Assembly (NCBI GenBank): GCA_903908065.1
Contig: CAIVQO010000090.1
Span: 124,001-188,000, forward strand
Source of the DNA: an uncultured beta proteobacterium
GTDB taxonomy: Bacteria > Pseudomonadota > Gammaproteobacteria > Burkholderiales > Rhodocyclaceae
Direction: 5' to 3'
Length of the DNA: 64,000 nt
Both the position numbers and the translations under genes were made by a program. The notes beneath the pieces are model-generated. The model saw only the letters and a list, made by a program, of their open reading frames with translations. It did not search any database and had not been told where the DNA came from. Numbering within the stretch: the stretch's first letter is position 1; each line of letters begins with the position of its first letter. This document shows, one piece after another, positions 27,550-56,585 of the stretch.

Positions 27550-27584
27550 GGGGATACCGTCTCCGCGTTCCGCAGAGATATAAC
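27550..27584 (-). repeat. Hairpin half of the dispersed repeat at the DUF3501 start
   Basis: Minus strand reads GTTATATCTC...GAGACGGTATCCCC. The arms GTCTCCGCG (27559-27567) and CGCAGAGAT (27571-27579) pair with one wobble and one mismatch around a 3-nt loop. It carries the hairpin and the GGTATCCC box but no GC-rich core. It fills the gap between the Fe-S gene stop and the DUF3501 start codon, so it forms that gene's leader. Confidence 0.7.
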
Positions 27585-28178
27585 ATGGAAACCGCAATGA
27601 CCATCACCCGCGAATCCCTGATGACCCTCGAAGCCTATGCCAAGGCCCGCCCCGCCATGCGCGAACAGGTCATGGCGCAAAAGAAGCTGCGCCGCGTTGC
27701 GCTGGGCGAACACATCCTGTTGATTTTCGAGAACGAGTTGCTGATCCGCTACCAGATCCAAGAAATGCTACGCGTCGAGAAAATCTTCGAAGAAGATGGC
27801 ATCCAGCACGAACTCGACTCCTACGTGCCGCTTGTCCCTACCGGCAGCAATTTCAAGGTGACCATGCAGATCGAGTACGCCGACGAAAGCCAGCGGCGCG
27901 AGGCCCTGACCCGCCTGAAAGGCGTCGAGGATCGCGTCTGGGTGCGGGTGGACGGATTCGACCCGGTGTTCGCCATTGCCGACGAAGACCTCGAACGCGA
28001 GAACGAGGAAAAGACCTCGGCCGTGCATTTCCTGCGTTTCGAACTGACCGCCGGCATGATCGCCGCGGCAAAGTCGGGTGCGGCGCTCTCGGTCGGTGTC
28101 GATCACCCGGCTTACACGGCCAACAGTGGTGCCCTGCCCGAAGCCGTGCGTGCATCGCTGGCGTCCGACCTGCGCTGA
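27585..28178 (+). CDS. DUF3501 family protein
   Basis: 197 residues from ATG 27585; ATG 27597 (MTITRESL) is an equally possible start. The family core is present: YAKARPAMREQVMAQKKLRRVALGEH, LRVEKIFEEDGIQHEL, and SYVPLVPTGSNFKVT. It has no cysteines that suggest a cluster and no membrane segment. DUF3501 is known only by its constant linkage to rubrerythrin and the CCG-domain protein. Its leader contains a repeat-derived hairpin. Confidence 0.86.
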   Translation: METAMTITRESLMTLEAYAKARPAMREQVMAQKKLRRVALGEHILLIFENELLIRYQIQEMLRVEKIFEEDGIQHELDSYVPLVPTGSNFKVTMQIEYADESQRREALTRLKGVEDRVWVRVDGFDPVFAIADEDLERENEEKTSAVHFLRFELTAGMIAAAKSGAALSVGVDHPAYTANSGALPEAVRASLASDLR

Positions 28179-28183
28179 GCCGG

Positions 28184-28247
28184 AAAGTTATGTCTTCGGC
28201 CCGGCCGAAGACGGTATCCCCTGCGGACGGCGCTGGCGCTACGGCGA
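28184..28247 (+). repeat. Full copy of the dispersed repeat, downstream of DUF3501
   Basis: AAAGTTAT, then the perfect 9-bp hairpin GTCTTCGGC/GCCGAAGAC (28192-28200, 28204-28212), then GGTATCCC, then the core GGCGCTGGCGCTACGGCGA. It starts 5 bp after the DUF3501 stop and ends 12 bp before the FNR-type site of ubiU. Confidence 0.8.
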
Positions 28248-28258
28248 AAGCGCCCCGG

Positions 28259-28297
28259 TTGACCCTAATCAACTGATTTTCCAACGCCTTCTATTAC
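28259..28297 (+). promoter_or_regulatory. FNR-type promoter for ubiU-ubiV-ubiT
   Basis: TTGACCCTAATCAA (28259-28272) matches TTGAT-N4-ATCAA with one difference. A -10 candidate TATTAC (28292-28297) puts the site centre at about -41 from the predicted start, the normal class II activating position. E. coli ubiUV is known to be induced anaerobically by Fnr, which this arrangement mirrors. Confidence 0.6.
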
Positions 28298-28327
28298 ACT
28301 GCCGCCCTCTTTTCCAGGGTGGCGAGG

Positions 28328-29332
28328 ATGGCCAAACCTCAACTCGTATGTCCGGCTGGTAGCCTGGCGGCACTCAAGGCCGCGGTCGATAACGGTGCCG
28401 ACGACGTCTATCTCGGCTTCCGCAACGACACCAACGCGCGCAACTTCGCCGGACTGAACTTCGACGACAAGGCCGTCGCCGAAGGCATTCGCTACGCCCA
28501 CCAGCGCGGGCGCAAGGTGCTCGTCGCCATCAACACCTATGCCCAGGCCGGGCGCTTCGCCGACTGGACGGCGTCGGTGGACAAGGCCGCCGAGCTGGGC
28601 GTGGATGCGGTAATCATCGCCGACCCGGCGGTGCTCGATTACGCGACGAAAACCCACCCACAGCTGCGCCGCCACCTGTCGGTGCAGGCCTCGGCCACCA
28701 GTTACGAGGCGATCAACTTCTGCCGCGACAAGTTCGGCATCCAGCGTGCCGTGCTGCCGCGGGTGCTGACCCTGGCCCAAGTGGAAAACGTGATCCGCCA
28801 CACCGAGGTCGAGATCGAGGTCTTCGGCTTTGGCAGCCTGTGCGTCATGAACGAGGGCCGCTGCTGGCTTTCCTCCTACGCCACCGGCGAATCACCCAAT
28901 ACGGTTGGCGCCTGCTCGCCGGCCAAGTACGTGCAGTGGGAAAAGAAGCCGAGCGAGATGGACGTGCGCCTTAACGACATCCTGATCGACCGTTACGGCA
29001 ACGACGAGAAGGCCGGCTATCCGACGATCTGCAAGGGCCGCTTCGATGTCGCCGGCGAAACCTATTACGCGATGGAGGAGCCGGCCAGCCTCAACGTGCT
29101 GGAAATGCTGCCCGAGATCATCCGCATCGGTGTCGCCGCGATCAAGGTCGAAGGCCGCCAGCGCAGCCCGACCTATGTTGCCCAGGTGACGCGCAACCTG
29201 CGCCAGGCCATCGACGCCGCTGCCGCCGCGCCCGGGGGCTTCGCCGTAAACCCGGCCTGGATGGCGGAGCTGGGCAAGGTCGCCGAAGGTTCGCAGATCA
29301 CGCTGGGCGCCTACAACCGCCCGTGGCGTTGA
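28328..29332 (+). CDS. ubiU: O2-independent ubiquinone hydroxylation protein UbiU
   Basis: 334 residues of the U32 peptidase-like family. ATG 28328 is chosen over GTG 28319 because [12 protein letters not shown] matches the family start. The four [4Fe-4S] ligands are C172, C179, C196 and C235, nearly the same numbers as E. coli C169, C176, C193 and C232. With UbiV it hydroxylates the ubiquinone ring without O2, using prephenate as oxygen donor. It is the first gene of ubiUVT, following an FNR-type promoter. ubiV starts 5 bp after its stop. Confidence 0.93.
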
Positions 29333-29337
29333 ATCAC

Positions 29338-30219
29338 ATGCAAATTTCGCTCGGCCCCCTGCTGTTCTTCTGGCCCAAGGCCGAGGTGCTGGAGTTCTAC
29401 GCCCAGGCCGCGCAGCATCCGGCCATTGATCGCATCTACCTTGGCGAGGCGGTCTGCGCGCGCCGCCAGCAGCTGCGCACCGCAGACTGGATCGGGCTGG
29501 CGCAGGACCTGCGTGCCGCCGGCAAGGAAGTGGTGCTAACCGCCCAGGCCCTGCTTGAATCCGAGAGCGACCTCAAGGCGATGCGCCGCCTGATGCGCGA
29601 TGCCGGCGGGCTGGTCGAGGCCAATGACCTCGGCGCGGTAAAGATGGCGCAGGACGAGGGCCTGCCCTTCGTCGCCGGGCCGCACCTCAACATCTACAAC
29701 GAGCAGACCCTGGCCTTCTTCGCCGCCCAGGGTGCGCAGCGCTGGCTGCCGCCGCTGGAGGTCTCGGGCAGCGTGGTCAAAGCCCTGCACGCAAGCCGCC
29801 CCGCGGGCATGGAAACCGAGGTTTTCGCCTTTGGCAAGCTGCCGCTGGCTTTTTCGGCGCGCTGCTTCACCGCCCGCCACTACGGGCTGAACAAGGACGA
29901 CTGTCAGTTCAAGTGCCTCGACCATCCCGACGGCCTGCTGGTCGATACCCGCGAGGGAAAGCACTTCCTGACCCTCAACGGTATCCAAACCATGTCGGCA
30001 CAGACCGAAAGCCTGCTGGCGCAGATGCCGCAGCTGATCGCCATGGGCGTCGACGCGGTGCGCATCAGCCCGCAATCGGCGCATACTTTCGCCATCGTCG
30101 AAGCCTTCGACCGCGCCCGCAAGGGCGAAGCCGCGTGTGACGACCCGGCCTGGGCGCCGGCCGGCACGGTCAATGGCTTCTGGTTCGGCAAGGCCGGCAC
30201 GGCGCAGGTCGCCGCTTGA
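29338..30219 (+). CDS. ubiV: O2-independent ubiquinone hydroxylation protein UbiV
   Basis: 293 residues. The start at 29338 gives [14 protein letters not shown], matching the E. coli N-terminus; GTG 29323 would overlap ubiU. The four cluster cysteines are C40, C176, C189 and C193 (E. coli C39, C180, C193, C197). It forms a heterodimer with UbiU in the cytoplasm. The gene is tightly spaced between ubiU and ubiT, with GGGGAGCAGAC leading into the next gene. Confidence 0.93.
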
Positions 30220-30230
30220 GGGGAGCAGAC

Positions 30231-30707
30231 ATGATCGACAGTTCGCGGATTCCGAAGATCCCCGCCTTCACCCTACCGGCGCTGATTGCGCGTATCGGCA
30301 CCCGCCTGCCGCAGTGGCCGCACTCGATGAACCTCGCCCTGGCGCTGAACGCCGCAAAGCGGATGGGCGTGCTGCACGACGACACTCTTTCCGAAATCGA
30401 GGGCAAGCGTTTCCGGGTCACCGTGCTCGACACCGGCATGGTGGCCGATTTCAGCTACCGGGCCGGCGCCTTCCGCCCCTTGTGGAATACCGGCGGCAAG
30501 CCGGACCTGCAGTTTGCCGCGCCGCTCTCCGCCTACCTGCAGATGGTCAGTCGTCAGGAAGATCCGGACACCCTGTTCTTCAACCGTACGCTGTCCATCG
30601 AGGGCGACACCGAGTTGGGCCTGCGGGTCAAGAACATGCTCGACGCGCTGGAGTGGCCGGCGATGTCCTGGCAGGGCCTCAAGCCGACTTTCCTGTCGCG
30701 CGGTTGA
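30231..30707 (+). CDS. ubiT: UbiT, SCP2-domain lipid carrier for anaerobic ubiquinone synthesis
   Basis: 158 residues from ATG 30231 with GGGGAG upstream. The central SCP2 fold (about 45-150) has the pattern ALALNAAKRMGVLHDDTL, GKRFRVTVLDTG, LSAYLQMVSRQEDPDTLFFNRTLSIEGDTELGL in outline. UbiT replaces UbiJ as the lipid-binding assembly factor under anaerobiosis. It is third in the ubiUVT operon; a rubredoxin gene follows after 46 bp. Confidence 0.9.
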   Translation: MIDSSRIPKIPAFTLPALIARIGTRLPQWPHSMNLALALNAAKRMGVLHDDTLSEIEGKRFRVTVLDTGMVADFSYRAGAFRPLWNTGGKPDLQFAAPLSAYLQMVSRQEDPDTLFFNRTLSIEGDTELGLRVKNMLDALEWPAMSWQGLKPTFLSRG

Positions 30708-30753
30708 TCCACGCTCCATGCGGTAGCATGCACGCCTTCGAACAGGAGGTAGC

Positions 30754-30918
30754 ATGAAGCAATGGCAATGCGTGGTCTGCGGCTGGGTCTATGACGAAGC
30801 GCAGGGCGATCCCGAACACGGCATCGCGCCCGGCACGCGCTGGGAGGATGTGCCCGAGGATTTCGTCTGTCCGGAATGCGGCGTCGCCAAGCGCGATTTC
30901 GTGATGCTGGAGTTCTGA
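30754..30918 (+). CDS. Rubredoxin
   Basis: 54 residues from ATG 30754 with AGGAGGT upstream. Two knuckles are present, [10 protein letters not shown] at the N-terminus and [11 protein letters not shown] near the C-terminus, giving the four Fe-binding Cys. The conserved loop [16 protein letters not shown] is intact. It is a one-electron carrier, a likely donor to the rubredoxin-less rubrerythrin encoded 5 kb upstream. It lies downstream of ubiT and upstream of a full dispersed-repeat copy. Confidence 0.95.
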
Positions 30919-30927
30919 ACGCAGGCC

Positions 30928-30991
30928 AAAAGTTATGTCTCCGGCAATGCCGGAGACGGTATCCCTTGGGGAAGGCGCTGTCGACACGGCG
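30928..30991 (+). repeat. Full copy of the dispersed repeat, downstream of rubredoxin
   Basis: AAAGTTAT, a perfect 9-bp hairpin GTCTCCGGC/GCCGGAGAC (30937-30945, 30949-30957) with loop AAT, then GGTATCCC, then the core GGCGCTGTCGACACGGCG. It starts 9 bp after the rubredoxin stop codon. The stem differs in sequence from the 28184 copy but keeps pairing. Confidence 0.8.
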
Positions 30992-31188
30992 CCAGCAAAG
31001 CTTTTCCTGACGCGGGCGCCGGCTGTGTTACAGTGCGCGCCGCATCACCTCCCCAACGACCGCGCCCCAGTCTGCCGGTCGTGCCTGAATCGGGCGCATG
31101 CCGCGTCCCACCCTAGGTTTCAACCCCACGGAAGTTTCCGCCCGGACTGGCCCGCGCAAGCGCGGGGGTCGGCTTCAGAGGTATCACC

Positions 31189-32526
<1,338 letters not shown>

Positions 32527-32540
32527 CTGCGGGGAAGGTC

Positions 32541-35300: not shown

Positions 35301-35337
35301 GGCGGATGAAGGCGGATGCCCAAAACGCGCGGGCGAC

Positions 35338-35365
35338 TTGCAACCCAGAGCTAAAATGATAAAAT
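35338..35365 (+). promoter_or_regulatory. Promoter of the solute-binding lipoprotein gene
   Basis: TTGCAA (35338-35343), 16-bp spacer, TAAAAT (35360-35365) in a markedly AT-rich pocket of the 111-bp divergent gap. The pocket continues with ATGATAACAAAAATC, which could serve the kinase promoter on the other strand or an activator site. Confidence 0.45.
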
Positions 35366-35411
35366 ATGATAACAAAAATCGGATCTTTTGTCATCCAGGG
35401 AAAGGAAAACC

Positions 35412-36515: not shown

Positions 36516-36561
36516 TTGTTCGTGGCCCGCGCTGTGCTGCCTGCAGCTGTCATAAGGTAGC

Positions 36562-37149: not shown

Positions 37150-37725
37150 CTAAAACGACGAACCCGGCTGCTTGAGGAACTCGATTTCCTCGGCAGTCGA
37201 GGGGCGGCCGAGGATGCCATTGCGATGCGGGAAGCGGCCGAAGCGGGCGATGATGTCGCGGTGCTTCACAGCGTAGTCGTAGGCGCTGTCGAAGGCCGCG
37301 CCCTGGGCCTCGCGGCGCAGCGCGGCATACAGGGCCACCGCGCGTTCCTGTTCCAGCAGCGATTCGGCGTGCTCGAAGGGCAGGTAGGCGAACCAGCGTT
37401 GCCAGTGGTCCAGGTTCTTGTCGCGGCCGGAGGTAACAAGCTGCGTGGCGATGGCCAGCGCCTGGGCATCGCCGGCGAAGGCGCGCGGCGTGCCGCGGAA
37501 GATGTTGCGGGTGAACTGGTCTAGCAGCAGGATGCGGGCGAGCAGGTCTTCGTCACTGGCGGCGGCGGGTGGAGAAGTGGCCAGCGCCACCTCGACCTCG
37601 GTGCCGAAGTGCGCGCGGATGGCCGCGTCGAAGGCATCGTCCTTGCGAAACCATTCGGCGCGATAACCGCCGGCCGGCAGGAACCAGAAGTCGAGGATGT
37701 CGCGGGTGCTTGCCGCGGCTGACAT
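37150..37725 (-). CDS. DUF924 family protein
   Basis: 191 residues with the family hallmarks DFWF, FRKDDAFDAAIRAHFG, LLDQFTRNIFRGTPRAFAGD and FAYLPFEHAESLLEQERAV. It is all-helical, TPR-like and cytosolic, and its function is not established. The ATG overlaps the topB stop (ATGA), so it is the distal gene of the topB unit. Confidence 0.88.
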   Translation of the reverse strand: MSAAASTRDILDFWFLPAGGYRAEWFRKDDAFDAAIRAHFGTEVEVALATSPPAAASDEDLLARILLLDQFTRNIFRGTPRAFAGDAQALAIATQLVTSGRDKNLDHWQRWFAYLPFEHAESLLEQERAVALYAALRREAQGAAFDSAYDYAVKHRDIIARFGRFPHRNGILGRPSTAEEIEFLKQPGSSF

Positions 37726-40385
37726 CAGGCCTTCTTGGCGACAGCCTTCTTAGCCGCCGGCTTTTTAGCCGCAGCCTTTTTTGGCGAGGCTTTTTTCGCC
37801 GTGTCGCCGGCGCCGACTTTTGCGGTCTTTTTTGCCACCGGCTTCTTCGCCGCTGCCTTCTTTACGGTCGGCTCGTTGGCCGCCTCTGCCTTGGCAGCGT
37901 CCGGCTTGGCGGCCGCGCCGGCCTTCGGCGCCGCTTTGGGGGCTCTGGGCTCGAACTCGAAGCCGACTTTGCCGGTCTTGGCGTCGCGCACCAGGTAGGC
38001 GGAGAACTTGCGCTTGGTGCGGTTGGAGACAAAACCCTTGAGCAAGTCGGTGCGTCCGGTGGCGAGCAGCTTCTGCATGTCGGCGCGGCCGACTTCCTGT
38101 TGCAGGATGATCTTGCCGGAACGGAAATCGCAGGTCCGGCCGGCGCCCACGCTCTTCTCGCAGACATAGGCCATGCCGTGTTCGAAGACGCGGCCGCCGC
38201 ATTTGGCGCAGGCGCCGAGGCTTTCCTGGCCCGAGAAATCGACTTCCTCGGCGTCGGCGTCGGCATCGGAATTGCCGAAATCGAATTCGGGTGTGTGGTC
38301 GTCCTTGAGCTTGATCATGGCCGCGAAGGCGCGCCCCATCTTGCTGCGGAAGCCCTGCAAGGGGCCGATCACGCGCTTAGAAAGCAGTTCGTCCATCTCG
38401 GCGGTTTCCCACTGCCGGCTGGCCACCACCTTCCACAGCTTGTAGTCGCACTTCTCGCAGGTGAAGTGCTTGTAGCCCTCGTGGATCTTGGCGCCGCACC
38501 GCGGGCAGGGGGTCTTCAGCGTGCCGAAGTCGGGATCGGCGAATTCGCCGGTCTTGATGCGCTCGACCATCACCCGGGTCTGGTCGACGATGTGGTTCAT
38601 GAACTCGTCGCGCGACAGGCGCCCGTGTTCCATTTCCTTGAGCTTGTATTCCCATTCGCCGGTCAGTTCCGGCGAGCGGATTTCATCCACCTGCAGCTGC
38701 TCCAGCGCGAACAGCAGCGAGAAGGCCTTGGCCGTGGGTTGCAGTTCGCGGCCGTTGCGATGCACGTACTCCTCGGCGATCAGGCCTTCGATGGTGGCGG
38801 CGCGGGTGGCCGGCGTGCCCAGGCCGCGCTCGGACATCGCTTCGCGCAGCTCCTCGTCCTCGATCAGCTTGCCGGCGCCTTCCATCGCGCTGAGGAGTGT
38901 GGCTTCCGAGAATCGCGGCGGCGGCTGGGTGGCCTTGGCCTTGACCTCGACATCCTTGGTCCAGATCCGTTCGTTCTTTTCCAGCGGCGGCAGGTTGGGG
39001 CTTTCCTCGTCGCCCTGGGCTTCCTTGCCATACACGGCCAGCCAGCCGGGCGTCACGAGCACCTTGCCCTCAGTCTTGAAGGCCTGCTTTTCCACCCGCG
39101 TGATGCGCGTCGTGATGTTGTATTCGGCGGCCGGGAAGAAGATCGCCAGGAAGCGCTTGGTGACCAGGTCGTAGATCTTCTGTTCCGGTTCGGAAAGATT
39201 CTTGGGCGTAGCCCCGGTTGGGATGATGGCGAAGTGATCGCTTACCTTGGCATTGTTGAAGATGCGCTTGTTGGGATGCACCCAGCCGCTCTTCAATATG
39301 GTGCCGGCGAAGCCGGCATAGGGCGTGCCGGCAAACTCGCCCAGGGTCGATTTGACCGTGGTGAGGTAATCCTCGGGCAGGTGGCGGCTGTCGGTCCGCG
39401 GGTAGGTCAGCACCTTGTGCTTTTCGTACAGCGCCTGGGCCAGCCCCAGCGTGTTCTTGGCGCTGAAGCCGAAGCGGCCGTTGGCCTCGCGCTGCAGCGA
39501 GGTGAGGTCGTAGAGCATCGGGCAGGCCTCGGTCTTGGGCTTGCTCTCTTCTTCCACCGTGCCGTGCTGGCCGAGGCAGGCGCGGCGGATTGCGTCGGCC
39601 TTGGCCTTGTCCCACAGGCGCTCGGCCTTGGCGTGCTCGTCATCGCTCTTTTTGAATGTCTCGTCGAACCAGCGGCCGCGGTAGGTGCCGGCGAGGCATT
39701 GGAACTCGCCCTCGACTTCCCAGTAGTCACGGGAGACAAAGGCGCGAATGCGGGCTTCGCGCTCGACCATGATGGCCAGGGTCGGCGTCTGCACGCGGCC
39801 TACGGGCGTCTTGTAGAAGCCGCCTTCCTTGGAATTGAAGGCCGTCATGGCGCGCGTGCCGTTGATGCCGATCAGCCAGTCGGCTTCCGAGCGGCAGCGC
39901 GCGGCGTCGGCCAGCGGCTGCATTTCGTTGTCCGTGCGGAGGTGGGCGAAGCCGTCGCGGATCGCCGTGGCGGTCATCGACTGCAGCCACAGGCGCCGCA
40001 CCGGCTTCTGCTTTTCGCCCAGGGCGTGCTGGGCGACGTAACGGAAGATCAGCTCGCCCTCGCGGCCCGCGTCGCAGGCGTTCACCAGGCCGGTGACGTC
40101 CTTGCGCTTGATCAGGCGCGTCAGCAGGCGCAGACGCTCCTGGGTCTTTTCGATCGGGTTGAGGGCAAAGTGCGGCGGGATCATCGGCAGGTGGGTGAAG
40201 CTCCACTTGCCGCGCTTGACGTCGTATTCCTCCGGCACCGCCAGTTCCAGCAGGTGGCCGATGGCCGAGGAGAGCACGTAATCGTCACTCTCGAAGTAGT
40301 CGCCGGTCTTGGTAAAGCCGCCCAAAGCCTTGGCAATGTCCTGCGCCACGGAGGGCTTTTCGGCGATGATGAGTTGCTTAGACAT
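37725..40385 (-). CDS. topB: DNA topoisomerase III (type IA) with Lys/Ala-rich tail
   Basis: 886 residues from ATG 40385 (MSKQLIIAEKPSVAQDIAKA). The Toprim acidic motif is NACDAGREGELIFRY and the active-site Tyr lies in LTYPRTDSRHLP. Two C-terminal Zn ribbons (CPRCGAKI...CEKCDYKLW and CAKCGGRVFEHG) are followed by a tail of about 90 residues in AKKA/KKPA repeats, like histone H1, for DNA binding. A core copy of the dispersed repeat encodes KVGAGDTAK inside that tail. It relaxes or decatenates DNA. It lies downstream of smg and dprA on the same strand. Confidence 0.92.
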   Translation of the reverse strand: MSKQLIIAEKPSVAQDIAKALGGFTKTGDYFESDDYVLSSAIGHLLELAVPEEYDVKRGKWSFTHLPMIPPHFALNPIEKTQERLRLLTRLIKRKDVTGLVNACDAGREGELIFRYVAQHALGEKQKPVRRLWLQSMTATAIRDGFAHLRTDNEMQPLADAARCRSEADWLIGINGTRAMTAFNSKEGGFYKTPVGRVQTPTLAIMVEREARIRAFVSRDYWEVEGEFQCLAGTYRGRWFDETFKKSDDEHAKAERLWDKAKADAIRRACLGQHGTVEEESKPKTEACPMLYDLTSLQREANGRFGFSAKNTLGLAQALYEKHKVLTYPRTDSRHLPEDYLTTVKSTLGEFAGTPYAGFAGTILKSGWVHPNKRIFNNAKVSDHFAIIPTGATPKNLSEPEQKIYDLVTKRFLAIFFPAAEYNITTRITRVEKQAFKTEGKVLVTPGWLAVYGKEAQGDEESPNLPPLEKNERIWTKDVEVKAKATQPPPRFSEATLLSAMEGAGKLIEDEELREAMSERGLGTPATRAATIEGLIAEEYVHRNGRELQPTAKAFSLLFALEQLQVDEIRSPELTGEWEYKLKEMEHGRLSRDEFMNHIVDQTRVMVERIKTGEFADPDFGTLKTPCPRCGAKIHEGYKHFTCEKCDYKLWKVVASRQWETAEMDELLSKRVIGPLQGFRSKMGRAFAAMIKLKDDHTPEFDFGNSDADADAEEVDFSGQESLGACAKCGGRVFEHGMAYVCEKSVGAGRTCDFRSGKIILQQEVGRADMQKLLATGRTDLLKGFVSNRTKRKFSAYLVRDAKTGKVGFEFEPRAPKAAPKAGAAAKPDAAKAEAANEPTVKKAAAKKPVAKKTAKVGAGDTAKKASPKKAAAKKPAAKKAVAKKA
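37797..37821 (-). repeat. Core copy of the dispersed repeat in the topB tail
   Basis: Plus strand TCGCCGTGTCGCC then GGCGCCGACTTT. In topB (minus strand) it reads KVGAGDTA, the opposite strand sense from the copies in priA, ntrY and the VWA gene. It sits in the disordered Lys/Ala tail, where extra residues should be harmless. Confidence 0.7.
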
Positions 40386-40469
40386 TGATTTTCTTGGATT
40401 TGCGTCGACGGAACGAGGTTGGGAGCGGCGCATCATAAGCGCAGCGCTCGAAAAAACGCAAGCCGGGGA

Positions 40470-40958: not shown

Positions 40959-40963
40959 GATCC

Positions 40964-43219: not shown

Positions 43220-43723
43220 ATGGCCCTATTGCCCATTTTGCGTTACCCGGACCCCCGTCTGCACCAGAAGGCAGCCGTCATCACGGTCGTGGACGACGAG
43301 ATTCGCCGCCTTGCCGCCGACATGGCCGAGACGATGTATGCCGCCCCCGGCATCGGCCTTGCGGCGACCCAGGTGGACCGCCATCAGCGCCTGATCGTAA
43401 TCGACATCTCCGAGGACAAGTCGCAGCTGCTGACCCTGATCAACCCCGAGTTGCTCGAAAAATCGGGGGAGTGCGAAGGCGAGGAGGGCTGCCTGTCGGT
43501 GCCCGGCATCTACGAAACGGTGACCCGCGCCAGCCATGTCCGCGTGCGCGCCCTCGGCCTCGACGGCAAGCCCTTCGAAATGGCGGCGGACGACCTGCTG
43601 GCGGTATGCATCCAGCACGAGATGGATCACCTCGAAGGCAAGGTGTTCGTCGAATACCTCTCGCGCCTCAAGCGCGAACGCATCAAGAGCAAGTTGCAAA
43701 AGCGCGCCCGCGAAACGCTCTGA
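43220..43723 (+). CDS. def: Peptide deformylase
   Basis: 167 residues from ATG 43220. The three metalloprotease motifs are intact: [18 protein letters not shown] and [12 protein letters not shown]. It removes the formyl group from nascent protein N-termini. It is paired with fmt 4 bp downstream, the standard arrangement, and divergent from the LysM gene. Confidence 0.96.
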
Positions 43724-43727
43724 GCCG

Positions 43728-44642
43728 ATGAAGCTGATTTTCGCCGGCACCCCGGAGTTCGCGGCTACCGCCCTCGAGGCCCTGCTCGGCGCCGGCCATG
43801 AAGTCGTGCTGGTGCTGACCCAGCCCGACCGCCCGGCCGGTCGCGGCATGAACCTGCAGGCCTCGGCAGTGAAGCAGGTGGCACTGGCCCATGCCATTCC
43901 CCTGCACCAGCCGGAACGGCTGAAGGACCCCGCGACGCATCAGCCGATCCGCGAGGCTTGTGAACGCGGTGCCGAACTGATGGTGGTCGCCGCTTACGGC
44001 CTGATCCTGCCGCAGGCGGTGCTCGACCTGCCGCCGCGCGGCTGCCTCAACATCCACGCCTCGCTGTTGCCGCGCTGGCGCGGCGCGGCGCCGATCCACC
44101 GCGCCATCGAGGCAGGCGACGCGCAGACCGGCATCACCATTATGCGCATGGAGGCCGGCCTCGATACCGGGCCAATGCTGCTGACGGCCGTCATCGACAT
44201 CGACGCCCAGGACACCACCGGCAGCCTGCACGACCGCCTTGCCGACCTGGGCGGCCGCTGCATCGTCGATGCCCTGGCGCGGCTCGATGCGCTGCCTGTC
44301 GTGCCGCAGCCCGAATTGGGCGTCACCTACGCCGGCAAGGTCGCCAAGGCAGATGCCCAACTGGATTGGAACCAGCCGGCCTCCACGCTGGCGCGCAAGC
44401 TGCGCGCCTTCAATCCTTTTCCCGGCGCCACGGCCATGCTCGGCGGCGAGCCGGTCAAGCTCTGGCGCGGCGAAGTCGTTGCCGGGCAGGGCGAGCCAGG
44501 CCGAGTGCTGGCCGCCGATGCAAACGGGATCGTGGTGGCCTGCGGCGACGCTGCATTGCGCCTGACGGAGCTGCAAAAGCCCGGCGGTCGCCGTCTCGCC
44601 AGCGCCGACTTTCTGCGCGGCAACCCGCTCAAGTCCGGCTGA
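43728..44642 (+). CDS. fmt: Methionyl-tRNA formyltransferase
   Basis: 304 residues from ATG 43728. The catalytic region contains [14 protein letters not shown] and [19 protein letters not shown], and EAGLDTGPM is nearby. The C-terminal domain binds the tRNA acceptor. Near the C-terminus RRLASADFL is encoded by DNA nearly identical to the dispersed repeat core (44588-44613). This segment also aligns with normal Fmt sequence, so its origin is uncertain. Confidence 0.95.
44588..44613 (-). repeat. Possible core copy of the dispersed repeat in fmt
   Basis: Plus strand TCGCCGTCTCGCC then AGCGCCGACTTTC, one or two differences from the core. It is read in a different frame (RRLASADF) from the priA/ntrY copies. 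The protein segment fits ordinary Fmt length, so chance or ancient fixation cannot be separated. Confidence 0.35.
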
Positions 44643-44722
44643 GGCCACGCCTAACGCGACCCCCGGCCGACCGGACCGCGTTTCACGCCCCGGTCGCCGG
44701 AGGTGGCTGCTATCCTTCGCCG

Positions 44723-46018: not shown

Positions 46019-46577
46019 GCGCTGGCTGCGTGGAGTGCTGGCTGCCCTGCTTTGGCTGTGCGTCGCGCTCGCCCATGCCGGAAGCATCGAGCCGAAGAGT
46101 GCCTCGCTGACGCCGGGCGAGGACGGCTACACGCTCTCGGCCGAGTTCGCCGTCGATCTCGGCAATCGCCTCGAAGAGGCAGTGACGCGTGGCGTACCGC
46201 TGTACTTCAACCTGGAGTTCATCCTCGAGCGCAACCGCAAGTACTGGGTCAATGAACACATCGTTTCGCGCAATCTGTCCTACCGCCTGGCCTACAGCAG
46301 CCTGACCCGCCAGTATCGGCTGACCACCGGCAGCCTGCACCAGAATTTCGGCAGCCTGGCCGAGGCCCTGCGCGTGGTCGGCCGCATCGCCGCCCTGCCG
46401 GTGGCGGACAAGGATGCGCTGAAGAACGGCGAAAGCTACGAAGCGGCCCTGCGCCTCGCGCTCGACCGCAACCAGCTGCCCAAGCCCTTCCAGGTCGACG
46501 CCATCACCGACAAGGGCTTGCAGGTCGAAGCCAAGGTCTTGCGCTGGCAGTTCACCGCGCCGGTGGTGGCTCAATGA
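45996..46577 (+). CDS. DUF4390 exported protein
   Basis: 193 residues from ATG 45996; ATG 45981 is also in frame. The N-terminal signal is RWLRGVLAALLWLCVALAHA. The mature part has the family pattern GYTLSAEFAVDLGNRLEEAV and YFNLEFILERNRKYWVNE. It is regularly encoded between rsmB and the ntrY-like kinase in betaproteobacteria. It is presumably periplasmic; the function is unknown. Confidence 0.85.
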   Translation: MHCCKRPERWLRGVLAALLWLCVALAHAGSIEPKSASLTPGEDGYTLSAEFAVDLGNRLEEAVTRGVPLYFNLEFILERNRKYWVNEHIVSRNLSYRLAYSSLTRQYRLTTGSLHQNFGSLAEALRVVGRIAALPVADKDALKNGESYEAALRLALDRNQLPKPFQVDAITDKGLQVEAKVLRWQFTAPVVAQ

Positions 46578-46686
46578 GCGCCACGCACTGCCGCCCGCAG
46601 GGGCGCAAGCCAGGAACCGGAGCCGCGCAGCGGCGATCCGTTGTCACCCCCTACCTTGGGCAGGGGGCAGCGGGGAGGGCCGTTCC

Positions 46687-48849
46687 GTGAAGATCGCGCT
46701 GGCCGTCGTCGTTGCGCTGGGCGCGATCCTGCTGTTCCTGCTGGCGTCGGCCTCGGCCAATACCGCGCTGTTCGCGCAGAATTACCCCTGGCTGCTGGCG
46801 ATCAACGGCATCGCCGCCGTCGCGCTGCTGGTGCTGGTCGGCCTGCAGTTGCGCCGCCTGCGCCAGGACTTCCGGGACGGCGTGTTCGGCTCGCGGCTCA
46901 AGTCGCGCCTGCTGCTGATGCTGTCCCTGATGGCCGTCCTGCCCGGGGCGCTGGTGTATGCCGTGTCGATGCAGTTCGCCGTCAAGAGCATCGACTCCTG
47001 GTTCGACGTGCGCGTCGACGCGGCGCTGGAAGGCGGCCTCAACCTCGGTCGCAGCATGCTCGAAAGCCAGCAGTCCGAGCTGCTGGCCAAGGCGCGCAGC
47101 GCGGCGCTGGATCTGGGCGATGGCGGCGTCGCCAGCGCGGCGCGCCTGAATCGCGTGCGCGAGAATGCCAGCGCCCAGAGCGCGGCACTGATCACGCTGT
47201 CCGGCCAGGTGCTGGCCAGCAGCTCGGCCGAGATTGGCAGCCTGCTGCCTTCGCTGCCAACATCCAGCCAGCTGCGCCAGGCGCGCACCGGCCGCGGCAT
47301 CGCACTCACCGGCGATGCCGAAGGCGGCGGGCTGATGGTGCGCGCGCTGGTGCCGGTTGCCGGCAGCGGCTTCACCGCCGATTCGCAGATCCTGCAATTG
47401 ACCCAGATGGTGCCGGCATCGATCATCAAGAGCGCCGAAAGCGTCGAAACCGCGCATCGCGATTACCAGGAGCTGCAACTCGGCCGCGGCGGACTCAAGC
47501 AGATCTACACCCTGACCCTGACGCTGGCGTTGTTGCTGGCCCTGTTCGCTGCGATCGCCCTGGCATTCCTGCTCGCCGAACGGCTGGCGCGGCCGCTGTT
47601 GATCCTTGCCGAAGGGACGCAGGCGGTGGCGGCCGGCGATTTCACGCCGCGTGCCACGGTCGAAGCCTCCGACGAACTCGGCGTGCTGACCCATTCCTTC
47701 AACAGCATGACCCAGCAACTGGGGGAGGCGCGTGCCCAGGCCGAGCACCATCGGGCGGAAACCGAGGCGGCCCAGGCCTACCTCGAATCCGTGCTGGCCA
47801 ACCTGTCCGCCGGCGTGCTGGCCTTCGACTTGCGCTTTCGCCTGCGTGCCGCCAACCGCGGGGCGCTGGCGATCCTCGCCGACGACCTGTCCGGCTTCGA
47901 GCAGATGCGCTTGCAGGATTGGCCGCGGCACGAAACCCTGGCCGGCGAAATCCTCGAAAGCTTCGCCCGGCGCGGCGGCGAATGGCAGCAGCAGCTCGAA
48001 CTGGCGCGCCCGGACGGCATGGCGCAGGCCCTGCTGGTGCGTGGCAAGGCGCTGCCGGCGGGCGGCGGTGGCGGCTACGTGGTGGTGTTCGACGACATCA
48101 CGCAACTCATCGCGGCACAGCGTTCCGCCGCCTGGGGCGAGGTGGCGCAACGCCTGGCGCACGAGATCAAGAATCCGCTGACGCCGATCCAGCTTTCTGC
48201 CGAGCGGCTGCAGCTGAAGCTGGCCGACCAGCTCAACGGCCCGGGGCGCGAGCTGCTCGACCGCGCCACGCAGACCATCGTCAATCAGGTCGAGGCGATG
48301 AAGAACATGGTCAACGACTTTCGCGACTATGCGCGCACGCCGCTGCCGCAGCTGGCGCCGGTGGATCTGGCGGCCCTGCTCGGCGAGGTGCTGGACCTGT
48401 ATCACCAGTCGCGTGCCGAAATCGCCGTATCGCCAGCGCCGACTTCCGGCCTGCCGCAGGTGCTGGCCGATGCCAACCAGCTGCGCCAGGTGCTGCACAA
48501 CGTGCTGACCAACGCCCAGGATGCCCTGGCCGAAACAGATGCGCCGAAGATCACGATCAGCATTGTCCAGGATGCGAGGCGCATGCGCCTGACGGTGCGC
48601 GACAACGGCCCCGGCTTTCCGCCTCAGATCCTGTCGCGCGCCTTCGAACCCTATGTCACGACCAAGGCCAAAGGCACCGGCCTCGGCCTCGCCATCGTCA
48701 AGAAGATCGTCGACGACCACGGTGGCGAGATACGCCTTGCCAGCGACCATGGGGGCGAAGTCAGCATCTGGCTGCCGCTGGCGAATGGAACAGCCGACGA
48801 AGTCGCGCCGCGTGATCGGGCGAACAGCGAGGCGGCGAAAGCCGCATAG
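46687..48849 (+). CDS. ntrY: NtrY-type nitrogen-regulation sensor histidine kinase
   Basis: 720 residues from GTG 46687. Membrane segments at about 3-25, 35-55, 75-100 and 280-305 precede HAMP (about 305-360) and a PAS-like domain. The DHp helix carries AHEIKNPLTPIQLSAERL. The ATPase domain has VLHNVLTNAQDAL, DNGPGFPP and GTGLGLAIVKK. Residues about 579-586 (IAVSPAPT) come from a core copy of the dispersed repeat, placed between DHp and the ATP domain. It partners the NtrX-like protein 22 bp downstream. Confidence 0.92.
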   Translation: MKIALAVVVALGAILLFLLASASANTALFAQNYPWLLAINGIAAVALLVLVGLQLRRLRQDFRDGVFGSRLKSRLLLMLSLMAVLPGALVYAVSMQFAVKSIDSWFDVRVDAALEGGLNLGRSMLESQQSELLAKARSAALDLGDGGVASAARLNRVRENASAQSAALITLSGQVLASSSAEIGSLLPSLPTSSQLRQARTGRGIALTGDAEGGGLMVRALVPVAGSGFTADSQILQLTQMVPASIIKSAESVETAHRDYQELQLGRGGLKQIYTLTLTLALLLALFAAIALAFLLAERLARPLLILAEGTQAVAAGDFTPRATVEASDELGVLTHSFNSMTQQLGEARAQAEHHRAETEAAQAYLESVLANLSAGVLAFDLRFRLRAANRGALAILADDLSGFEQMRLQDWPRHETLAGEILESFARRGGEWQQQLELARPDGMAQALLVRGKALPAGGGGGYVVVFDDITQLIAAQRSAAWGEVAQRLAHEIKNPLTPIQLSAERLQLKLADQLNGPGRELLDRATQTIVNQVEAMKNMVNDFRDYARTPLPQLAPVDLAALLGEVLDLYHQSRAEIAVSPAPTSGLPQVLADANQLRQVLHNVLTNAQDALAETDAPKITISIVQDARRMRLTVRDNGPGFPPQILSRAFEPYVTTKAKGTGLGLAIVKKIVDDHGGEIRLASDHGGEVSIWLPLANGTADEVAPRDRANSEAAKAA
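48421..48446 (-). repeat. Core copy of the dispersed repeat inside ntrY
   Basis: Plus strand ATCGCCGTATCGCC then AGCGCCGACTTC. It is nearly identical to the core in the full priA copy. It encodes IAVSPAPTS in frame at a domain boundary of the kinase. Confidence 0.75.
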
Positions 48850-48871
48850 GGAAACAAGGGGGTAGGGAAAC

Positions 48872-50107: not shown

Positions 50108-50119
50108 GCGTAACTCACC

Positions 50120-51550: not shown

Positions 51551-51557
51551 TACCGCG

Positions 51558-53012: not shown

Positions 53013-53019
53013 GGTGCTC

Positions 53020-53057
53020 TGAGCGATAATTGCGGCTTCATTCCGCAGGATCGCTCA
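53020..53057 (+). promoter_or_regulatory. Hairpin occluding the hemE ribosome binding site
   Basis: TGAGCGAT (53020-53027) pairs with ATCGCTCA (53050-53057), with an inner GCGG/CCGC helix (53032-53035, 53043-53046). The SD-like AGGA (53047-53050) lies inside the stem and the ATG starts 1 bp after it. No T-tract follows, so translation control is more likely than termination. Confidence 0.45.
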
Positions 53058-53058
53058 A

Positions 53059-54165
53059 ATGTCACCCACGGCCCGCCCCAAGAACGACACCTTTCTTCGC
53101 GCCCTGCTGCGCCAGCCCGTCGATTACACGCCGGTCTGGCTGATGCGCCAGGCCGGCCGCTACCTGCCGGAGTACAACGAGACGCGGCGTCGCGCCGGCA
53201 GCTTCCTGCAACTGTGCAAGAACCCGCAACTGGCCTGCGAAGTCACCCTGCAACCGCTGTCCCGCTTCGAGCTGGATGCGGCCATCCTGTTTTCCGACAT
53301 CCTCACCGTGCCCGATGCGATGGGCCTCGGCCTGTATTTCGCCGAAGGCGAGGGCCCCAAGTTCGAGCGCCCGCTGCGCGAGGAATGGGCGATTCGCGAC
53401 CTCACCGCGCCAGACCCCAACGTCCATCTGCGCTACGTGATGGACGCCGTGGCGGAGATCCGCCGCGCCCTGCATGGCTCGGTGCCGCTGATCGGCTTCT
53501 CCGGCAGCCCGTGGACCCTGGCCTGCTACATGATCGAAGGCGGCTCGGGATCGGCCACCGATTACCGCACGGTCAAGACCATGCTCTACGACCGGCCCGA
53601 CCTGTTGCATCGCATCCTCGACGTCACCACCACGGCGGTGATCGACTACCTGAACGCGCAGATCGCGTCGGGTGCCCAGGCGGTGATGATTTTCGATTCC
53701 TGGGGCGGCGTCATGTCGCACGCCGCCTACCGCGAGTTTTCGCTGGCCTACATGCAGCGCATCGTCGCCGGCCTGACCAGGGTCAGCGAAGGCGAGCGCG
53801 TGCCCAGCATCGTGTTTACCAAGGGCGGCGGGCAGTGGCTGGAAGCCATTGCCGACATCGGCTGCGATGCCGTGGGCCTGGACTGGACCACCGATCTGGG
53901 CGAAGCCCGGCGGCGGGTTGGCAATCGTGTCGCGCTGCAGGGCAATTTCGATCCGATGGCAATGTTTGCCGCGCCCGACAAGGTGGCCGCCGAAGCCAGG
54001 AGGGTGCTGGACAGCTACGCTGCCGACCCTGCCGAGGCCAGAAAAGCCGGCGGCCATGTCTTCAATCTCGGCCACGGGATTTCGCAGTTCACCCCCCCGG
54101 ACAACGTAAAAATTCTGGTTGACACGGTGCATAGCCACAGCCGGCGCGCTTCCGCGACGGGCTGA
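53059..54165 (+). CDS. hemE: Uroporphyrinogen decarboxylase
   Basis: 368 residues. Diagnostic motifs are [17 protein letters not shown] (about 26-42), the catalytic Asp region [33 protein letters not shown] and [16 protein letters not shown]. It converts uroporphyrinogen III to coproporphyrinogen III in haem synthesis. A DnaA-box-rich gap and priA follow. Confidence 0.96.
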
Positions 54166-54551
54166 AACGCGAAGCCGCCGCGGGCTGCGGTTTGGCGCCG
54201 GCCACCCTGCGCAAAAGGCCGTCCGGCAAGGGCTCGCGGGGGGGGCAAAAAATGGCCTGCGGCAGTTGACTTATTCACAGAAAACGCTAGACCACCGTAG
54301 TTGCCGCAAAATCACCGGCACCCGCCAAATGATATTTGTAAGTCGCTGGTTTTAAACAGTAATTTTTTGCTCAAATATTGCACAGAGATGAAAATTGCTA
54401 GGCCGGGCGGTAACTTAGGCGCTCGCCGTGGCGCTTACCCACAAAGTTATCCACAGATTTTGTGGGTAAGCCCAATTGTCTTTTTGGCCAGATACTTGAG
54501 CGCATTTGGCAAGGTAATCTCGAAGATTCTCAGGCAAGCGTCTGAGCCGGC
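54166..54551. other. AT-rich intergenic region with clustered DnaA boxes (origin-like)
   Basis: 386 bp between hemE and priA. It holds a consensus DnaA box TTATCCACA (54447-54455) in the loop of a 13-bp inverted repeat GCTTACCCACAAA/TTTGTGGGTAAGC (54433-54445, 54459-54471). The arms themselves hold the near-boxes TTACCCACA and TGTGGGTAA. A further TTATTCACA is at 54271-54279. Between them, 54330-54395 is clearly AT-rich (TTTTAAACAGTAATTTTTTG). No gene is visible. It could be a replication origin, a DnaA-titration site or control of priA. Confidence 0.55.
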
Positions 54552-56585
54552 ATGAACATCGTTCGGGTCGCCCTCGATGTGCCGCTGCCGAGGTTGTTCG
54601 ACTACCTGGCACCGGATTCTGACGAAAGTGATATCGGCCGGCGGGTCGATGTCCCATTTGGCAAGGCTTCGAAGACCGGAGTCATTGTCGGGCTAAGCGC
54701 GGACAGCGAGCAGCCGGAAAACAAGCTGAAACCGGTCGCGGCGATCCTGCGCGACATGCCGGCGCTGCCGCCCGACTGGTTGGCCCTGTGCGAGTTCTGT
54801 GCGCGCTATTACCAGACACCGCTGGGCGAGGTAACGTCCTTCGCCCTGCCGCCCATGCTTCGCCGCGGCAAACTGCCGCGCATGCCCAAGGCGGCCAAGA
54901 TCGCCGTGTCGCCAGCGCCGACTTCTGGGGATACCGTCCCCGGCGCAGGCGCCAGGGACATGACTTCTGCGACCCTGGCCCTGCCGGATCTCCTGCCGGC
55001 GCAACAGGCCGCGGTGGCCGCGCTCACCGCTGCGCGCGAATTCCAGACCTTCCTGCTGCACGGGGTGACCGGCAGCGGCAAGACCGAGGTCTATCTTCGC
55101 GCCATCGCCGACGTGCTGGCCGGCGGCGGCCAGGCCCTGATGCTGGTGCCGGAAATCGCGCTCACGCCGCAGCTGGAAAGTCGTGTCGCCGCCCGTTTTC
55201 CGGGCGCACGTGTGGTCTGCGCCAACAGCGGCATGGCCGATGCGGCGCGTGCGCGCGGCTTCCTCGATGCCCAGGCCGGACGCGCCGACATCGTGCTCGG
55301 TACCCGCCTCGCGGTGTTCATGCCGCTGCCGCGACTGCGCCTGATCGTGGTCGACGAGGAGCACGATGCCTCGTTCAAACAGCAGGAGGGCCTGCGCTAC
55401 TCGGCGCGCGACGTGGCGATCTGGCGCGCGCACCAGCGCAACATCCCGATCGTGCTCGGCTCGGCCACGCCCTCGCTGGAGACTTTCCACCATGCCGCGA
55501 CGGGCCGCTATCGATTGCTCGAACTGCCCGAACGCGCGGTGGCGGAGGACATGCCGAGCGTGCAGGTGGTCGACACGCGGCGCCAGAAGCTGCAGGAAGG
55601 CCTCTCGGCGGAACTACTCGCGGCGCTGGCCTTGCGCCTCGAACGCGGCGAGCAAAGCCTGGTTTTCCTCAATCGGCGCGGCTATGCGCCGGTGCTGGCC
55701 TGCCCGCCCTGCGGCTGGATCTCGCGCTGCCGGCGCTGTGCTGCCAACCTCGTGCTGCACCTCGCCGACCGGCGCCTGCGCTGCCACCACTGCGGGTTCG
55801 AGGCCGGTGTGCCGCGCGCCTGCCCGGACTGCGGCAATGTCGACCTGCTGCCCTTCGGCCGCGGCACGCAGCGCCTCGAAGCCATGCTCGGCGAACGCTT
55901 CCCGCAGGCACGGGTGCTGCGCATCGACCGCGACTCGGCCAGTACGCCGAAGAAATGGCAGGCGCTGCTGGCCAGCATCCATGCCGGCGAGGCCGACATC
56001 CTGGTCGGCACCCAGATGTTGGCCAAGGGCCACGATTTCCCGCGCCTGACACTGGTCGGTGCAGTAGGCGCGGATGCCGCCCTGTTCGCCGCCGACTTCC
56101 GCGCTCCCGAACGCCTGTTCGCACAGCTGATGCAGGTTGGCGGCCGCAGCGGGCGCGCCGAACTGCCGGGCGAGGTGCTGATCCAGACCGAGCATCCGCA
56201 GCACCCGTTGTATCGCGCCCTGCAGGCACACGACTATGGCAGCTTCGCGCAAAGCCAGCTGGCCGAGCGGCGCATCGCCGGCTTTCCGCCCTTCAGTTTC
56301 CAGGCCATGCTGCGCGCCGAGGCGCGCGAAATGTCGCAGGCGCTGGATTTCCTTGCTACGGCGCGCGCCGCCGCCGAGCCGCTGGCGGTCGAGGTCACGC
56401 TCTACGACCCGGTGCCGATGCGCATGCAGCGCCTGATGGCGCTGGAACGCGGGCAGCTGCTGGTGGAGTCGCTGAGCCGATCCGCCTTGCAGGCCTTCCT
56501 CGGCAAATGGATGGACTGCCTCTACGCGCAAAAGATGCCGGCCGGCCTGCGCTGGCACCTCGACGTCGACCCCTTGGAATTTTGA
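54552..56585 (+). CDS. priA: Primosomal helicase PriA
   Basis: 677 residues. The N-terminal 3'-end-binding domain is followed by the helicase with Walker A GVTGSGKTEVYL, DEEHDASFKQ and GSATPSLE. Two zinc clusters with eight Cys (CPPCGWISRCRRC, CHHCGFEAGVPRACPDC) and RTLQR-like FGRGTQRLEAML follow. Residues about 117-139, between the N-terminal domain and the helicase, are coded by a full dispersed repeat (54900-54966), adding a segment beginning IAVSPAPTSGDTVPGAG. It restarts stalled forks. Confidence 0.93.
   Translation: MNIVRVALDVPLPRLFDYLAPDSDESDIGRRVDVPFGKASKTGVIVGLSADSEQPENKLKPVAAILRDMPALPPDWLALCEFCARYYQTPLGEVTSFALPPMLRRGKLPRMPKAAKIAVSPAPTSGDTVPGAGARDMTSATLALPDLLPAQQAAVAALTAAREFQTFLLHGVTGSGKTEVYLRAIADVLAGGGQALMLVPEIALTPQLESRVAARFPGARVVCANSGMADAARARGFLDAQAGRADIVLGTRLAVFMPLPRLRLIVVDEEHDASFKQQEGLRYSARDVAIWRAHQRNIPIVLGSATPSLETFHHAATGRYRLLELPERAVAEDMPSVQVVDTRRQKLQEGLSAELLAALALRLERGEQSLVFLNRRGYAPVLACPPCGWISRCRRCAANLVLHLADRRLRCHHCGFEAGVPRACPDCGNVDLLPFGRGTQRLEAMLGERFPQARVLRIDRDSASTPKKWQALLASIHAGEADILVGTQMLAKGHDFPRLTLVGAVGADAALFAADFRAPERLFAQLMQVGGRSGRAELPGEVLIQTEHPQHPLYRALQAHDYGSFAQSQLAERRIAGFPPFSFQAMLRAEAREMSQALDFLATARAAAEPLAVEVTLYDPVPMRMQRLMALERGQLLVESLSRSALQAFLGKWMDCLYAQKMPAGLRWHLDVDPLEF
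54900..54966 (-). repeat. Full copy of the dispersed repeat inserted in frame in priA
   Basis: Plus strand: core ATCGCCGTGTCGCC AGCGCCGACTTC (54900-54925), then GGGATACC, then hairpin arms GTCCCCGGCG (54936-54945) and CGCCAGGGAC (54950-54959) with loop CAGG, then ATGACTT. The same parts occur in reverse order and strand relative to the copies at 28184 and 30928. The open reading frame is kept. Confidence 0.8.

Follow-up and report, generated by a model that had tools for sequence, protein, structure and literature searches.

A recurrent GC-rich motif with palindromic companion elements in a Rhodocyclaceae genome, a candidate DNA uptake signal

Results

The window, by which we mean the whole 64-kb stretch analysed, carries genes for a VWA domain protein, a methyltransferase-domain protein, a cyclopropane synthase family protein, topoisomerase I, Fmt, a histidine kinase, PriA and a ROK domain protein, and copies of a repeat lie within these genes and between genes (Table 1). 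A sequence-only reading had described them as a single dispersed palindromic family with full and partial copies. Every copy that it named exists: those at 28184, 30928 and 54900 combine a hairpin half with a core (at 28189, 30934 and 54923–54968), that at 27550 is the hairpin half alone (27541–27584), and core-only copies lie at 4874, 11613, 26141, 37798 and 48424. Core-only copies at 13064, 44590 and 59599, with one mismatch each, were absent from its list. The repeats are in fact two separate things, a GC-rich core and a hairpin half, here called element A.

Table 1. Cores and A elements in the 64-kb window
Feature	Position	Strand	Mismatches	Context
Core	4874..4893	-	0	Antisense in VWA domain protein gene 4058-6124 (+)
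Core	11613..11632	+	0	In methyltransferase-domain gene 10490-11653 (-); no relative alignable
Core	13064..13083	+	1	In cyclopropane synthase family gene 12845-14080 (-); encodes RRAASADF
Core	26141..26160	-	1	Intergenic
Element A, alone, 44 bp	27541..27584	-		Between two genes
Element A	28189..28227	+		Intergenic; inserted after AAAGT of core
Core	28226..28245	+	2	Intergenic; after A element 28189..28227
Element A	30934..30972	+		Intergenic; inserted after AAAAGT of core
Degenerate core	30971..30990	+	3	After A element 30934..30972
Core	37798..37817	-	0	In topoisomerase I gene 37725-40385 (-); encodes VGAGDTA
Core	44590..44609	-	1	In fmt (43728-44642 +); encodes 10 residues
Core	48424..48443	-	0	In histidine kinase gene 46687-48849 (+); encodes AVSPAPT
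Core	54903..54922	-	0	In PriA (54552-56585 +), linker from 3'BD to helicase domain
Element A	54923..54968	-		Belongs to PriA copy; between two AGAAGT copies
Core	59599..59618	+	1	In ROK domain, gene 59308-60219 (-); encodes RRITGADF
Degenerate core-like site	60011..60030	-	4	In ROK gene 59308-60219

The core, AGTCGGCGCYGGCGNNACGGCGA, is about 23 bp long. Its pattern GTCGGCGCYGGCGAYACGGC has 14 matches at ≤3 mismatches in the 64-kb window, against a mean of 0.19 and a maximum of 2 in dinucleotide shuffles of the same stretch. A scan of the whole 3.84-Mb genome under study (G000; other G numbers denote relatives' genomes and g numbers genera), as the sequence-only reading had proposed, gave 446 copies at ≤2 mismatches with little strand bias (207/239), compared with 2 for the reversed pattern. 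Its judgement that the copies exceed chance also holds against a codon-preserving background: the genes of a 464-kb G000 sample contain 12, 12 and 16 cores at 0, 1 and 2 mismatches, where the average over 20 shuffles is about 0.4, 2.6 and 4.9 once the 6, 4 and 6 intergenic copies, which the shuffling leaves in place, are subtracted from the totals. At 3 mismatches the shuffles predict about 11 of the 24 matches in genes and, since they yield about half of such matches, those at 5330, 19098 and 24267 are doubtful.

The 12-mer AGTCGGCGCTGG is the most frequent in both the G000 sample (43 per 464 kb) and the G001 sample (46 per 400 kb), and occurs 19 times in a 200-kb sample of each; in 200-kb samples of the core-free family genomes G044 and G096, every 12-mer occurs at most 7 times. 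With two variable positions left open, there are 42, 26 and 11 copies at 0, 1 and 2 mismatches in G001 (reversed control 0, 0 and 2) and 34, 18 and 27 in G000 (0, 0 and 3), so that exact copies are the commonest class and in excess; the peak in G000 is weak, and with all positions fixed the counts there are 18, 16 and 22. Constraint spans about 23 positions, the fixed sequence ending at 23–25 bp with variable flanks beyond, and the core folds no better than its shuffles. Rfam at gathering scores returned 0 matches in the 64-kb window. Among core and hairpin strings sought in literature text, only GACGGTATCCC was found, once in each of two papers, and no title among the matches listed dealt with a repeat family or an uptake motif from Sulfuritalea or other Rhodocyclaceae, in a coverage that mostly excludes subscription journals. 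By raw count, the exact 23-mer core also occurs in 19 stretches of the IMG/VR viral collection.

Among the samples counted, 126 of 181 cores lie inside genes. The share is 40/56 for G000, whose sample is 92% coding, and 51/79 for G001, whose sample is 88% coding. The three reading frames (0, 1, 2) are used very unequally, with 60, 2 and 9 sense and 30, 24 and 1 antisense cores. The protein flanking a core is less conserved than the remaining gene (identity 0.70 vs 0.79), falling below it in 75 of 101 partly non-independent instances; cores are thus conserved while sitting in permissive stretches. In the window, the topoisomerase I core occupies a Lys/Ala-rich tail and that of the histidine kinase falls between the HisKA and HATPase domains. 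Spacing is more even than random in G001 (CV 0.60 vs 0.90±0.09) and in G000 (CV 0.76 vs 0.97±0.13, p 0.029), and 20 evenly spaced 20-kb stretches of the single-contig G001 chromosome hold 68 cores, with only 2 stretches empty. The bias towards gene ends is not significant (21/75 within 150 bp vs 18.8 expected), and no depletion was seen in compositionally atypical genes, as graded by coding-typicality or GC3 quartile. A role as terminators was rejected, close inverted core pairs being few.

Related genomes differ in whether an orthologous position carries a core. Of 20 independent gene sites, 14 have a core-lacking orthologue of equal length, which argues that a core is usually gained by sequence replacement and not by insertion, although where polarity is unclear equal length could also mean decay of an old insertion. 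The remaining 6/20 sites show other length differences, and at no site among the 20 are the differences confined to the −6 to −11 residues predicted for a missing 23–30-bp unit. Lengths are equal in 15/15 core-lacking orthologues of the G067 fmt, in 7/7 of another G067 gene, in 4/4 of a G001 gene, and in the G002 and G022 orthologues lacking the core at 59599..59618 of the ROK gene; relatives at replaced sites differ from the core by 6–10 mismatches. Two cases are compatible with insertion: the topoisomerase tail, where lengths differ by −18 to 0, and one gene of G175, where the difference is −5 in 3/3. Elsewhere the site itself is shared: the VWA gene core is found at the same place in G008 and G007, and 16 of 17 aligned members, G000 counted, match at ≤3 mismatches at the fmt core 44590..44609. 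These alignments suggest that new copies usually arise by replacement, as would be expected of uptake sequences.

Element A is palindromic, about 40 bp long, and ordered as TATGTC, hairpin and GACGGTATCCCCTGCGGA, with a 9-bp stem in two copies. Six of 13 scored copies are inserted at a fixed point of the core, after AGT; a further palindromic element, C, inserts in cores after GGCGCYGGC among the matches listed, and both are also found elsewhere and combine in arrays. Core, core+A, core+C and core+A+C alternate at one orthologous site in PriA, the histidine kinase and the ROK gene. C lies within the histidine kinase core in G008 and G026, while relatives at the degenerate ROK site carry A (G007), A with a C-like element (G001) or core with C (G015, G004). 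The A copy in PriA is read through in frame. An empty-site comparison, of the kind the sequence-only reading had suggested, was informative for the solitary copy at 27541..27584, which is absent with a clean empty site from 4 of 6 aligned relatives (G007, G023, G015, G022) and present in 2 (G008, G001). Against G007 the unit at 28189 appears as a pair of gaps (37 and 28 bp), and it is missing also in G001 and G023; nearby, G015 has a core without A. At the 30934 site G015 carries A and C, the latter interrupted by another copy of A, and the G007 counterpart of the core at 26141..26160 bears a 24-bp A insert without a hairpin. Element A is thus a separate palindromic element, whose empty sites are clean and whose presence genes tolerate. 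Of the two characters first proposed, a small mobile palindromic element therefore describes A, with its empty site and 9-bp stem, and not the core, which folds no better than its shuffled versions and is mostly no insertion; a repeated DNA signal fits the core.

We infer mobilisation in trans for both A and C. The RAYT-type transposase suggested earlier found no counterpart: a profile search for Y1_Tnp (PF01797) gave no match in G000, nor in G067 (305 cores at ≤1 mismatch), G003, G129, G093, G204, or five searched g19 genomes, and RAYT as the mobiliser is not supported, there being no Y1 match in G000. Across the 50 genomes searched, Y1_Tnp is present in 26, core-rich and core-poor alike.

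Each of the 31 genomes of the genus, G000 included, holds 49–666 cores at ≤2 mismatches; one of the genus, G027, has only 12 at ≤1 mismatch. High counts are restricted to 6 of the 68 family genera sampled, and related genera with few or no cores exist. Clades have core dialects, seen in small samples: on 5 contigs of the g45 genome G074, 9/9 cores at ≤3 mismatches read GTCGAC under a pattern that also admitted GTCGGC, and the leader is AAAGT in G000 vs AGAGT in G001. A ComEC tree of 27 rows was labelled by core count, at ≤2 mismatches for G022 (181) and at ≤1 mismatch for the rest. The 13 rows labelled 'rich' fall in three separate places and require 5 changes, on a topology limited by the long row of G044 and by 7 forks left open; shuffled labels need 9.4 on average, and 3 of 500 shuffles were as low as 5.

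ComEC was found in 60/60 genomes searched, core-rich and core-free alike, and the ComP receptor family (PF16732) in 56/60. Many core-free genera have higher PF16732 scores than most of the core-rich genera do, and therefore ComP does not track the core; as markers splitting core-rich from core-free genomes, neither ComP_DUS nor ComEC discriminates among the 60, and no receptor of the PF16732 family tracking the core was found in them.

Discussion

Known uptake signals are among the closest comparisons. The DUS of Neisseriaceae, as excerpts of two papers describe them, have hundreds to thousands of copies, are highly conserved yet sit in permissive stretches, arise by recombination and form clade dialects (PMC2397512, PMC3630211). 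The core resembles them in its many copies, its conservation in permissive stretches, its gain by replacement and its clade dialects; it differs in its unrelated sequence, its length (about 23 bp vs 10–12), its fewer copies, a ComP family that does not track the motif and the nested palindromic elements that it carries. Recently acquired genes are described, in the excerpt concerned, as being without DUS (PMC2397512), whereas the core shows no depletion in compositionally atypical genes, which speaks against the likeness. The USS of Pasteurellaceae share high copy number, conservation in permissive stretches, origin by recombination, dialects and a gene share below the coding share, which in H. 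influenzae is given in part of one source as 65% of USS in ORFs of a genome about 86% coding (PMC2346458), but the core is unrelated to them in sequence and has no significant gene-end bias. Its length also lies outside the 9–12 nt stated for DUS and USS in an excerpt of PMC12616744.

Our preferred reading, to which we give a little better than an even chance, is that the core, at about 23 bp, serves the whole genome as a recognition motif, spread and maintained by biased exchange of chromosomal DNA and most likely an uptake signal, with A and C as a second layer. Uptake would be the driving process: fragments with a good core match would be taken up more often in natural transformation and would displace the resident gene by recombination, and the motif would in this way accumulate by substitution wherever the protein tolerates a favoured reading frame. 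A and C are small hairpin elements that inserted at fixed points of cores and elsewhere. A tentative extension of this reading, which we hold well short of probable, would make the core a third, independently evolved uptake-signal system, in Rhodocyclaceae, with a longer motif and genus dialects, in which A and C, from inside the signal, hitch-hike on natural transformation; they would then be parasites of a bacterial mating signal, evolved to land within cores.

Constraint and even spacing would fit equally well a site for a chromosome-wide DNA-binding protein, acting in nucleoid organisation, segregation or repair and selected site by site, with uptake irrelevant, and cores do occur all round the G001 chromosome. 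KOPS, matS and parS show strand or regional bias, however, and the cores lack bias of that type. The variation at orthologous positions and the dominance of filtering by the frames that a protein tolerates suit drive better than site-by-site selection, and copy number falls to the 12 of G027 within the genus; we consider such a binding site unlikely. Less likely again is a single REP/MITE or Rickettsia-palindromic-element family inserting in frame, of which core-only copies would be remnants after hairpin loss. Rickettsia palindromic elements (RPE) are small palindromic elements lying in frame within genes, and A in PriA and ROK resembles them in form; REPs are extragenic by definition, and A is like them too in being a short hairpin element that forms arrays with C. 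The fixed insertion points, arrays and alternating states at orthologous sites, together with the in-frame presence in linkers, would be natural for such a family. The core itself, though, is neither palindromic nor mostly an insertion, the 14/20 equal-length sites and 0/20 unit-sized differences speak against insertion, exact copies form the commonest class of a sequence that does not fold, and a REP/RAYT system sits poorly with 126/181 genic cores and the absence of a Y1 transposase match in G000; for the core, this explanation is largely refuted. We consider it very improbable that cores spread by templated conversion without uptake, for instance through short single-stranded copies annealing at the replication fork: replacement without length change at sites 6–10 mismatches away is what this would produce, but neither an element acting as source nor a locus acting as template came to light, and the core lacks fixed flanks past its 23–25 bp.

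If the uptake-signal reading is true, a third unrelated family would show the repeated evolution of such signals and would extend them to bacteria recorded from groundwater and lakes. The range of 49–666 cores (≤2 mismatches) within one genus, beside related genera with few or none, would constitute a natural experiment, and whether the signal is exploited by selfish elements can be tested directly on A and C.

Core and hairpin half

The core and the hairpin half, A, are two different things. The core spans about 23 bp, with an A-rich leader (AGTCGGCGCYGGCGNNACGGCGA), and folds no better than its shuffles (z −1.2 and −0.9). A measures ~40 bp and has the structure TATGTC-stem-loop-GACGGTATCCC..GGGA; three of its copies gave z-scores of −2.4, −4.9 and −1.9 against shuffles. 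Hence the single palindromic family of the sequence-only reading divides: palindromy holds for A as a separate unit and does not extend to the core. The same reading's claim that the copies exceed chance was borne out, with 14 core matches at ≤3 mismatches in the window against 0.19 by chance, and 446 at ≤2 mismatches (207 forward, 239 reverse) in the whole genome (G000; 3.84 Mb, 103 contigs, the window being part of contig C90) against 2 for the reversed-pattern control; codon-preserving shuffles of genes in a 464-kb sample did not account for the excess. All 31 genus genomes searched, G000 included, carry the core (49–666 copies each; controls 0–4). Across 249 family genomes, 28, making up 6 of 68 genera, have at least 30 copies at ≤1 mismatch, and the remainder have ≤12 each. 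Scanning named species genomes for the exact A–core junction returned 104 stretches, and the 80 listed among these are all titled Sulfuritalea, Rhodocyclaceae, Rhodocyclales or "uncultured beta proteobacterium".

The core is a signal at the DNA level rather than a peptide. Within genes, sense cores give VGAGDTA-like (60), KSALAxRR-like (9) and SRRWRHGD-like (2) peptides, and antisense cores AVSPAPT-like (30), RRxASADF-like (24) and one other, so that four tolerated peptides come from a single DNA string. Third positions of codons match orthologues at 0.76 inside cores versus 0.61 outside, the inside value being higher in 46 of 55 instances, not all independent.

Replacement, maintenance and dialects

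Genes were called by a hexamer model in sampled stretches, and 161 core-bearing proteins were aligned with orthologues; keeping only cores for which some orthologue aligned well on both flanks and departed from the core at ≥6 positions left 52 instances at 20 independent sites. At 14 sites at least one core-lacking orthologue has identical length. A loss of 6–11 residues alone, expected for a missing 23–30-bp insert, was seen at none of the 20, and at two of the same-length sites, a topoisomerase tail and a site in another gene, there are further orthologues shorter by 8 or 10 residues. Length differences vary at the other six: RsmB orthologues without the core are longer by 4 to 7 residues, and all three core-lacking orthologues of a gene in G175 are shorter by 5. 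From these alignments, the core usually arises by replacement. Clear gains are fmt in G067 (KVGAGETA versus IDIDAQDT and the like elsewhere; 15/15 of the same length), a second G067 gene (7/7) and one gene of G001 (4/4).

The core is being maintained or driven. Exact copies form the largest class once its two variable positions are left open, copies at 0, 1 and 2 mismatches numbering 42, 26 and 11 in G001 and 34, 18 and 27 in G000 (reversed controls 0, 0 and 2–3). With all positions fixed, the exact-copy peak is weak in G000 (18, 16, 22) and there is none in G001 (13, 34, 21), one mismatch being commonest. Proteins are less conserved around cores than in their other parts, and cores are spaced more evenly than random sets, clearly so in G001 (0/2000 random sets as even) and weakly in G000. 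A dialect, GTCGAC instead of GTCGGC, occupies 9/9 core copies (≤3 mismatches) on five contigs of G074 (genus g45; L358–L362); five were found by a pattern allowing one mismatch anywhere and four were unselected, and the reversed control gave 2, both at 3 mismatches. Separately, GTCAGCGCCGGCGA is common to 3/10 core matches of G052 (g23) and 2/3 of G251 (g10), possibly another dialect or small family.

Elements A and C

A pattern search covering 464 kb in G000 and 497 kb in G001 scored 13 copies of A, overlooking imperfect ones such as that at 27541. A also occurs on its own outside cores, and G001 has two copies head to tail. Since six of the 13 lie within cores, each immediately 3' of the core's AGT, and cores take up far less than 1% of the genome, targeting of cores by A, or joint spread of both, is likely; a seventh precedes a broken core. 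Five of the six end in GGA, followed by the remainder of the core. At PriA, the AGAAGT pair around A could be a target duplication; aligned relatives have GGAC or a different right junction there. The search for empty sites also succeeded, with one copy cleanly missing from four relatives (Table).

Another palindromic module, C (..CTCTGCGTACCTGG..CCGCTTCGCGGGCAGG..), lies within cores of G000 (L015, L016), G004, G008, G015 and G026; in G018 and G027 its copies are outside cores. One A is nested inside a C in G015. As small palindromic elements, A and C belong to a known type, and their arrays in G018 and G027 resemble REP/BIME; a fixed position inside such a motif is unusual.

Other repeats were also noticed. 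A priA query returned 33–36-bp, 94%-identical stretches elsewhere in at least 7 genus genomes, and the exact 27-mer of the priA-upstream repeat occurs in 9 of 337 sampled loci. The 46574–46686 stretch is another dispersed intergenic element (Table). In core-free G096 (L309–L318), AGGCTCAGGCTC is prominent in 12-mer counts (7 copies), probably a local tandem array.

Table. Positions of repeats and related features
Position	Feature	Observation
Window 27541–27584	A	Present in G008 and G001; cleanly missing in G007, G023, G015, G022
Window 46574–46686	113-bp intergenic stretch	Missing in G007; extra 65-bp insertion inside it in G008
G002:C11:33668–33777	Match to window 46574–46686	88%
Window 54437–54472	Inverted repeat (ACCCACAAAGTTATCCACAGATTTTGTGGGT) around TTATCCACA	Upstream of priA; TTATCCACA is DnaA-box-like
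Window 54923–54968	PriA copy of A in G000	Flanked by two AGAAGT copies, not GGA-then-core
Window 59599	Core	Within Pfam domain of ROK kinase
L241:6745–6900 (G018)	A and C outside cores	Tandem/mixed arrays (C-C, A-C-A)
L267:25–170 (G027)	A and C outside cores	Tandem/mixed arrays (C-C, A-C-A)

History and comparison with uptake sequences

In a ComEC tree built from 27 genomes, a single-gene tree that cannot separate losses from transfers, core-rich genomes fall in three places (Sulfuritalea with genera g38, g8 and g64; g46; g19), with 5 changes versus a shuffled mean of 9.4. G027 sits within the Sulfuritalea group with 12 copies at ≤1 mismatch, which suggests a recent loss of core upkeep.

According to PMC2397512, the Neisseriaceae uptake sequence (DUS) is conserved, is born of recombination, lies in permissive regions of the core genome and is missing from recently acquired genes. 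PMC3630211 describes DUS dialects, and PMC2346458 places 65% of the uptake signal sequence (USS) of Haemophilus influenzae, a member of the Pasteurellaceae, in ORFs. Conservation, permissive placement, origin by recombination and dialects are shared by the core. Absence from acquired genes, a DUS trait, was not supported by the coarse proxy used, and no bias of cores to gene ends was seen. The ComP family, considered as a receptor marker, is near-universal in the genomes searched and does not track the motif. On this evidence we lean slightly towards the view that the core works like an uptake sequence, and do not class it as one.
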